Of a stretch of 64,000 nt of DNA, positions 25,701-28,700 are shown piece after piece. The first letter of the stretch is position 1. Every line of letters begins with the position of its first letter. Source of the DNA: Arenicola marina. Its lineage: Eukaryota; Annelida; Polychaeta; Arenicolidae. The notes under the pieces are model-generated. The model searched no databases. It was not told the origin of the DNA and was given only the letters and a program-made list of their open reading frames with translations. The stretch spans positions 4,604,823-4,668,822 of the forward strand of contig OZ025252.1 of NCBI GenBank assembly GCA_964019135.1. The letters run 5' to 3'. A program made the translations under genes and the position numbers.

Positions 25701-28700
25701 GCGAACACCCACTGCTCCCCTCCCCATCCCCATCCCCCTCGCCCTCGGCGTCCTCCGCGCCCCCGGCAGGACCCTCCTTCCCGACTGCGGCCGCCCCGTC
25801 GCTAGGCGCCCCGCCGCCCCCGTCGCCGACGATGAACCCCCCGGGGTGGGAGTCCTGGGACTCGTTGTCGCCCGAATCGATGCCGGCATGGGGCAGGCTG
25901 TTGTCCTTCGTGGTCTCCAGCGGCACGATGAACAGGTCGGACTTGCTGGGCGTCAGGCGCGGGGTCGGGCTTTCCGTGCTAGACCGGCGGGAGTCGCACG
26001 ACTCGCTGCTCGACAGCCCCACGTTGTTGGTCACGCGCACCTGCTGAGGACAGAGGCACGGGGTGGTCGGTTGCATTTTCAGGACGCTGTAACCACTTTC
26101 GGTCATCTCGCGTCAATGGGAGAAGGAAGGAAGGCAGAATGGAGCCATGTGCCCTGGGGTAACCTGCTACTCTTTGCGAAGTAGGACATGGGATCTTTAT
26201 CCTGCGACCACACAGACATGGCCACATTGGGGCTCGAACCATCGATACACGCGCCCGTTAGGCTCTCAGGTGACCAGAGCACTCAATGCGAGCGCTCTAA
26301 CCCACTGAGCTACCGGCTCGGCCCCCAGATGCACAGGATCTGGCTACTACTTGGTGCATATAGACCAACGAATTTTACCTGCATCTGGCTATTACTTAGT
26401 GCAAAATGACCAACGAATTTTACCTGCATCTGACTATTACTTAGTGCAAAATGACCAACGAATTTTACCTGCATCTGGCTATTACTTAGTGCAAAATGAC
26501 CAACGAATTTTACCTGCATCTGGCTATTACTAAGTTGTTAAGTGAATATGGACCAAGGAAGTTTACAGAGCACATTACAAATATTCAAGTTACATATATA
26601 ATGGTTCTTCCGGCTCAGGGCAAACCCTTCTACCAATACAGCTTACATAGGATCTGGCTATTACTTAGTGCATATAGACCCCCAGAATGTTACCTGCATC
26701 TGGCTATTACTAAGTTGCTATGTGAATATGGACCAAGGAATTTTACATGTGGCCTCCTATGGGCCTGGGGCCGTGATCGCGCTGAATTGGCTGACCCCCC
26801 CCCCCCCCCAACCCCTCGCCGACGACGTTCGGTTTTAACCAGGGATTGCACAGATGAGTACCATGGCGCCCCTACCATTTCTTTCTTGGAGTTCGCGCAA
26901 ATTCGTCGTATTACATTCGGCGCGATGTACTCGGGGAGCATCTTCCTGTAGAGTAATAACACAGACACACTTACAGTTACTGACACAGAAACATATTCCT
27001 TGGCAAACGTTTACCGTATTTGTTCATCGAAATGGCGTATTCTGGTACTTAGTGTAGACCGGTAACACACTTTGCGTATGTAAATTAATAACAGGGCATG
27101 TTGTTAAGCCACTTTTTTGGCCAAAATGGTACATTTCGTACGGGAAAGTGTGGATTTCTCGCGTACTACGTCATCGTGAAGAATTAACATTCACATTCAG
27201 ATAATGCGTCTGAGACATTTCTCCAAAACATAAGAAAAATCATAATATAAGTGTAAAGTTGCTGTATAAGCCGCGGTCACAAACACAATAACATTTTTGA
27301 TGCATACGTTTTACATATTTATCAGCAATAATGTAACATGGTAAGCTATGTCACCGCTTATTTGACATTCTATGCTATCGACAGACTATCTAATCAACAG
27401 TTGTCTTACAAAACAAGAACACAATTCTCACTTACCTCTTGACATGCTTCATTTCAATTTTCATGCCATCTTTTAGCAAGTTGATTGTGAGGGCTTGTCT
27501 ATGGACTGCACAAAGAATGGTGAAGAATATCATAAGTTCTTAGTAGCAAGTTGTATAGCAATTTATGAACCAAGTCCCGCTTGAAGCAAGAAAACGGACG
27601 AATGATAAATAACCTTAAACCTGTTAACTGCAACAGGAGATATACTTTTAATGCGCATGGTTTCCGTCTACTGTATACGCTGTAGCAAACACCTTTCACC
27701 ATCTCACGATGGAAACACTGGATTGAGACGCAATAAATTTCACGTCGGTCCATTATCAAGGTGATCTTATTACCTGGGAAGCGTCATGTCTCTCAGAGGG
27801 TCAGACTCACCTGTGTCGGTGAATGACTGGATGTCGTAGGTGAGATCAACATTGACACTGGGGGCTGGGACGAAGATGAGGCCCACGAACCACTTGGTCA
27901 CAAAGCGACCCTCGCTGAAACAGACACCCAGATACACGTCAAGGATATGGTATCAAGCAGCACTATTATTGTTACGATTATAAGTATTAAGTGCCCAGAC
28001 CCGGATGCAAAGCCAGGACCTACGGATCTGCGGTCTAGTGCACAAAGCACTACACCAGGGAGGCCCCTATTTGCTAAACCCTGCAAGAAATAAGATATTA
28101 TATGAAGCATGAGTTGTGCTTAGGGGAACACATCGTCATGATTCACGAGCCACCCCATTATTATCTCACCACAAACTTACCCACTATTGCTGTTATCTCA
28201 CCACAAACTTACCCACTATTGCTGTTATCTCACCACAAACTTACCCACTATTGCCGTTATCTCACCACAAACTTACCCACTATTGCTGTTATTTCACCAC
28301 AAACTTACCCACTATTGCAGTTATATCACCACAAACTTACCCACTATTGCTATCATCTCACCACAAACTTACCCACTATTGCTGTTATCTCACCACAAAC
28401 TTACCCACTATTGCTGTTATCTCACCTCAAACTTACCCACTATTGCTGTTATCTCACCTCAAACTTACCCACTATTGCTGTTATCTCACCACAAAACCTC
28501 AAACTTACCCACTGTCGAGAGGGCCAAATGATTCAGGGTTGACGTGCGCCAGTTTGATGTAGGGATTCTTCTCCAGGTTTCCCACAAGAATCCTAATTTT
28601 TGATTCTACCAATCCGACCCTAAGAAATCAAACGCAGGGAAAACTTCAATCAGTATCCACAAGCGATTAAACACAGACGGGATAGTATTTACGATCACAA

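Follow-up and report, generated by a model that had tools for sequence, protein, structure and literature searches.

The poly(A) polymerase gene PAPOL contains an exon whose 5' splice site is followed, within the adjoining intron, by ten further intact copies of itself. This array is located in the 64-kb window, i.e., the whole stretch of DNA analysed here, and is probably a minisatellite of the type termed a mirage, generated by slippage or unequal exchange. The first donor would be the one mainly used, with the remaining donors being tolerated as decoys without a selected function. The features concerned are the following, with slashes marking splice junctions:

23258 to 34179, minus strand: PAPOL gene body in the window, 18 exons recognised, 17 introns
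28509 to 28619, minus strand: PAPOL coding exon, the twelfth recognised, 37 residues, placed by frame and splice signals
28503 to 28508, minus strand: real 5' splice site GG/GTAAGT, donor 1 of the array and the sole donor in the row that keeps the frame into the following exon
28161 to 28513, minus strand: probable mirage-type minisatellite, 11 copies of AGTGGGTAAGTTTG, unit 1 of 40 bp and the others of 32 bp
27915 to 28508, minus strand: array intron, 594 bp, between the exons 28509-28619 and 27811-27914
27811 to 27914, minus strand: following PAPOL exon, acceptor tttcag/CGAGGG, 34 residues, placed by frame and splice signals

The identification of the gene as PAPOL in the first-pass annotation is supported by several matches. 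Specifically, the reading frame at 32489-32677 matches PF20750, the PAP nucleotidyltransferase domain (E=2.4e-19), and the poly(A) polymerase PDB 1f5a (E=8e-26). The first eleven exons were located by tblastn with an approximate human PAPOLA sequence, and their ends are likewise approximate. Two matches to PAP_central in the genome search also support the gene body. The last seven exons were placed by frame and splice signals, the final three of them without a homology match. The exon at 28509-28619 agrees with this PAPOLA sequence at 84% over 31 aa, and the exon at 27811-27914 matches PAP_RNA-bind (PF04926) with E=0.0026 and 17.9 bits, below the cut-off of 24. When the former (AGTGG/gtaagttt) is spliced to the latter, the frame is open and contains no stop. 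Since this junction gives an unbroken frame, donor 1 is, by frame, the donor that makes PAPOL, as had been assumed when the array was first described.

On the minus strand, the donor GGGTAAGTTT occurs exactly in 11 of 11 copies from 28,510 down to 28,173, so that a splice signal is present in each copy. The starts, in forward-strand coordinates, are 28510, 28470, 28438, 28406, 28374, 28342, 28310, 28278, 28246, 28214, and 28182, and no other occurrence was found on either strand of the whole 64-kb window. The claim that a tandem array multiplies a real 5' splice site is thereby confirmed, with ten intact copies in the intron after the first. The repeat spacing, given previously as mostly 32 bp, has this value in nine intervals, and the first interval is 40 bp. 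TRF reports the array at 28161-28495 with a period of 32, 10.5 copies, 95% matches, and a score of 614, so it is not a product of chance. The common unit is GCAATAGTGG/GTAAGTTTGTGGTGAGATAACA, in which AGTGG/GTAAGTTTG is in register with the PAPOL junction. Thus, the unit spans the real exon-intron boundary, with an exon part of only five bases (AGTGG, before the junction).

Copy 1 exceeds the others by 8 bp and contains the GAGG as well as the GTGG variant, with GAGG alone being present in copies 2-3 and GTGG alone in copies 4-11. On one reading of this pattern, copy 1 would be ancestral and two different 8-bp deletions would later have arisen from it; on another, copy 1 would be a recombinant. 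Most units also harbour a secondary donor-like site, either GTGGTGAGA (seven) or GAGGTGAGA (two). Each copy was scored with a splice-site model, a check proposed in the first-pass annotation, using an approximate human weight matrix. All 11 primary donors score 8.70. Of the secondary GTGAGA sites, nine lie in the range 7.9-9.85, and a further two have decayed to 4.4-4.6. On this approximate human matrix, the two GAGGTGAGA sites (9.85) exceed the real donor. The copy number derives from one assembly (867 Mb, 762 contigs), whose contig C5 (49.9 Mb) contains the window. A DNA search of this assembly with a 491-bp query revealed no second allele of the array, matching only itself and an array on C6 that is 69% identical and has units without GTAAGT. 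On the same result, insertion of a dispersed satellite next to the donor was rejected as the source.

The spread of intact donors had been considered unusual, a view that column statistics do not bear out. In the nine full 32-bp copies (2-10, with copies 1 and 11 excluded), 5 of 32 columns are variable, none of them in the donor. Five random columns would all miss the 10-base donor with P=0.13, so the intactness of all eleven donors is statistically unremarkable and selection on them is unnecessary; youth and homogenisation suffice. The longest invariant run comprises 19 columns (P=0.08). The block AGTGGGTAAGTTTG, chosen post hoc, shows no variation in any of its 14 columns (P=0.043), which is a weak hint of constraint.

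Across donor 1, the exon frame reads AGT GGG TAA GTT TGA and reaches a stop at once. The first-pass annotation envisaged alternative donors that lengthen the exon in 32-bp steps; because TAA is located directly at donor 1, such steps cannot lengthen the PAPOL protein. The downstream donors thus add no in-frame residues of the kind expected in an IFI6-type coding minisatellite. Transcripts from later donors would be expected to end after ...PLDSG, a truncation point that would lie inside the C-terminal RNA-binding region. The extra donors are most likely unused or yield dead-end transcripts. Furthermore, the sense strand of the array intron (27915-28508) contains neither AATAAA nor ATTAAA, and the nearest downstream polyadenylation word is a single ATTAAA at 27652, in the next intron.

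Counting TRF arrays with a period of at least 10 and a minimum of 2.5 copies, minisatellites occupy 30.3% of the window. By the same criteria, coverage ranges from 0 to 100% in 25 other 10-kb stretches, of which 20 are evenly spaced on C5 and five surround a second, divergent PAP-like gene (L008-L012, C5:14430001-14480000; about 32-50% identity exon by exon to the approximate PAPOLA sequence). A T2T earthworm genome is reported to contain 2.65% minisatellites (PMC12130307). When the four gene-body arrays were placed at random in the 17 PAPOL introns, one came to lie 8 bp or less from a donor in 8.9% of trials, a value obtained with several approximate exon ends and with a fifth row at 32702-32745 (2.1 copies) excluded. 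As 8.9% of random placements do so, an array touching a PAPOL donor is unsurprising. Two other arrays of the window also have donor-like units. At 42638-49922, a 47-bp unit with AAGGTGAGG on the minus strand is repeated about 155 times, and a run of N adjoins this 7.3-kb array. At 26338-26535, a 45-bp array in a PAPOL intron has a minus-strand unit with CAG/GTAAAA and lies off the exon edges in the gene model.

A second exon-edge array was met in L014 (C5:3.40 Mb), which belongs to the 20 evenly spaced samples, at an exon of EGLN, the HIF prolyl hydroxylase gene:

L014:9004 to 10000 (C5:3409004 onward): EGLN exon-edge array, last 43 exon bases plus donor, 19 repeats to the end of the stretch

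Two exons in this sample, when joined, encode a peptide that matches Egl nine homolog 1 (E=6e-32) and PF13640 (E=2e-11). The repeats are spaced by 47-48 bp, and the donor CAG/GTAAGT is intact in all copies (n=20 including the real one). Over 49 positions compared with the exon edge, the 19 downstream copies agree at 34-46, the four low values belonging to copies at 47-bp spacing that were aligned ungapped. No stop interrupts the frame before it has passed two downstream donors; both are in phase, and each would extend the protein by 16 residues if used. The frame then reaches a stop. Judging by the aligned copies, exon-edge copying is much clearer at EGLN than at PAPOL. The origin of such arrays from a copied exon edge, which the first-pass annotation called clear for PAPOL, is thus weak at that gene with its five exon bases and clear at EGLN with 43. 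The EGLN case also shows that donor arrays are not a one-off in this genome. Among 82 arrays scored for a donor-like unit in the 25 loci, it was the only one tied to a coding exon in an unsystematic exon search. Since about 0.02 CAGGTAAGT arrays were expected in the 200 kb of even samples, at five per 46 Mb, the hit was lucky and its rate is not to be extrapolated.

Donor words in arrays were also counted across the genome as raw triple patterns on both strands, each word being compared with its mirrored pattern. All five donor words tried exceed the mirrored pattern: GGTAAGT (27,029 vs 11,622), GGTGAGT (52,671 vs 33,502), CAGGTAAGT (1,816 vs 447), AAGGTAAGT (447 vs 219), and CAGGTGAGT (2,660 vs 830). 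The non-donor controls disagree, as GAGTGTA gives 17,742 vs 19,885 and TAGCGATGA gives 1,185 vs 105, a stronger skew than that of the donor words. Because of this disagreement and because a few huge arrays dominate the raw counts, genome-wide donor enrichment is not claimed. A visual count of distinct arrays covered the initial 46 Mb of C1, where the matches listed include at least five CAGGTAAGT arrays and at least one of TAGCGATGA. These counts hint at donor enrichment, with small numbers. The matches listed for the first 1.1 Mb of C1 include at least six GGTAAGT arrays. No local excess of donor scores was found, with 5 of 104 arrays reaching 8.5 vs a mean of 4.8 in base-shuffled units. The arrays at C1:606015-612276 and C1:1754360-1754776 carry CAG/GTAAGT or CAG/GTGAGT in each unit and are candidates for further mirages.

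In the mirage interpretation of the PAPOL array, replication slippage or unequal exchange in a minisatellite-rich genome would have multiplied the last five exon bases and about 27-35 intron bases. As suggested by the reading frame, the spliceosome would mainly take donor 1, the downstream donors would be tolerated decoys, and stop-bearing products of later donors would probably be removed by nonsense-mediated decay. When duplicated donors are equally strong, splicing can favour whichever is closest to the acceptor. As this outcome would destroy the message, donor 1 must be favoured by some further factor. Furthermore, as only five exon bases are shared, expansion could have begun at the start of the intron and taken in the junction incidentally. 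It is rather unlikely that an ordinary intronic minisatellite abuts the donor by chance and that the exon edge was not copied. This explanation would agree with AGTGG alone being common to exon and unit, with the probability of roughly 9% that some array touches a donor of PAPOL, and with the 69%-identical C6 array, whose units lack GTAAGT. However, the real junction falls within unit 1 and is in register with the other units, and the EGLN locus in the same genome shows a copied exon edge.

The truncating position of the later donors could also be read as a device for regulation, which appears improbable. Regulated use of these poison donors would lead to decaying, stop-containing transcripts and would tune the PAPOL level, perhaps through feedback by U1 snRNP. 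Each downstream donor does lie beyond the in-frame TAA, and on the approximate human matrix all 11 primary donors are equal and the two GAGGTGAGA sites surpass the real one. Nevertheless, the proposal draws on sequence, the donor conservation is not beyond chance, and a similar array is found in an unrelated gene, EGLN. U1 also suppresses nearby cryptic polyadenylation, and eleven GGGTAAGTTT sites are lined up within 338 bp. Such a row might act as a U1 sink or in telescripting, either suppressing premature cleavage and polyadenylation in PAPOL or titrating U1, and this explanation deserves hardly any credence. The array intron lacks both polyadenylation words, the nearest one residing in the next intron, and it is implausible that a single 348-bp intronic array titrates an abundant snRNP, still more so with thousands of triple-donor pattern matches in the genome.

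Mirages are tandem repeats across exon-intron boundaries and were named in amphioxus Adh3 (PMC3087553, PMC3902484). According to these reports, they are found in Adh3, the globins BflGb6 and BflGb9, troponin C, and PGBD5, with units of 10-160 bp and splice signals in many copies, though not in all (PMC3087553, PMC3902484). Going by the Adh3 data and the globin RT-PCR cited there, mirages seem to leave regular splicing undisturbed, and mirage arrays have been proposed to seed new introns (PMC3087553). The PAPOL array resembles the amphioxus examples in its tandem unit across a real exon-intron boundary and in the splice signals of its copies. It differs in that the donors are intact in 11 of 11 copies and that the unit includes five exon bases only. 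Moreover, splicing and length instability have been reported for amphioxus mirages, whereas the PAPOL array is known here from the sequence of one assembly. The host differs as well: amphioxus is a cephalochordate, which describes the host range of mirages so far and is not a structural criterion, whereas the mitochondrial gene order found here is of annelid type.

This order was read from C762, a mitochondrial contig of 15,942 bp with 12 protein genes identified by eye on one strand throughout, for which the invertebrate code fits. The reading covered these 12 proteins and the tRNAs, with atp8 and the rRNAs outside it. ARAGORN made 25 tRNA calls, 22 of which were accepted as the standard set, all on the protein strand; the other three were judged false, two of them on the opposite strand. 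The order runs cox1-N-cox2-D-Y-G-cox3-Q-nad6-cob-W-atp6-R-gap-H-nad5-F-E-P-T-nad4L-nad4 and, after nad4, C-M-V-L-A-S-L-nad1-I-K-nad3-S-nad2, which is taken to equal the Lumbricus order item by item. In the conserved NHKDIGT site of COX1, AAA reads as Lys, at variance with the echinoderm/hemichordate code, and an echinoderm or hemichordate host was rejected for this reason. Mitochondrial coding on one strand marks annelids with few exceptions, and a single mitochondrial order is described for all Clitellata, with the control region between tRNA-Arg and tRNA-His (PMC10090101). The gap in C762 lies between the same two tRNA genes and is devoid of a listed same-strand gene. The mitochondrial contig argues against amphioxus as the host and indicates an annelid, which would probably be a clitellate.

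In the human interferon-induced transcript IFI6/G1P3 (6-16), several splice donors reportedly come from a minisatellite (Turri et al. 1995, by its title). It is said to be a short repeat in coding sequence, located where an exon ends, and its donors are reportedly functional. The likeness consists in a minisatellite that supplies several donors to a single transcript. The downstream PAPOL donors would all truncate the protein, in contrast to IFI6/G1P3, and the first two extra EGLN donors are in frame. Earthworm metallothionein genes contain minisatellites in intron 1, with monomers of about 180 bp on average (PMC12783039). These lumbricid arrays are likewise intronic, and, unlike for the PAPOL array, no duplicated splice site is mentioned in the accessible part of that paper (PMC12783039). 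Minisatellites near alternative splicing have been the subject of a study in C. elegans (PMC4039745). No earlier splice-site minisatellite from an annelid was found among the titles and abstract openings listed in a limited search of open-licence literature, an absence that is weak evidence.

The PAPOL and EGLN arrays would thus be mirages outside cephalochordates, a known kind of structure in a phylum that is new for it in the literature searched. Mirages in both annelids and amphioxus would suggest a by-product of minisatellite-rich genomes and not a peculiarity of lancelets. Such a distribution would also be relevant to the suggested role of these arrays in seeding introns. If identical intact donors sit at the real ends of exons of essential genes, they represent natural experiments on 5' splice-site choice. 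It is a real possibility, if somewhat short of probable, that donor-array duplication is a genome-wide process, independent of that in amphioxus, which places length-variable rows of strong donors in many genes, with blocks of 16 residues in the EGLN type and stop decoys in the PAPOL type. Genomes with such a process would allow both the choice of 5' splice sites and the gain of introns to be studied in a natural setting.

Two minor observations concern the PAPOL gene and its relatives. Stretches at about 26200-26330 and 29730-29990 of the window, both in PAPOL introns, appear by eye to resemble a tRNA-derived SINE. A PAP-like gene on C232 (L001, 20,977 bp) gives a one-piece match with in-frame stops, is about 32% identical to the approximate PAPOLA sequence, and is perhaps a contaminant with another genetic code.
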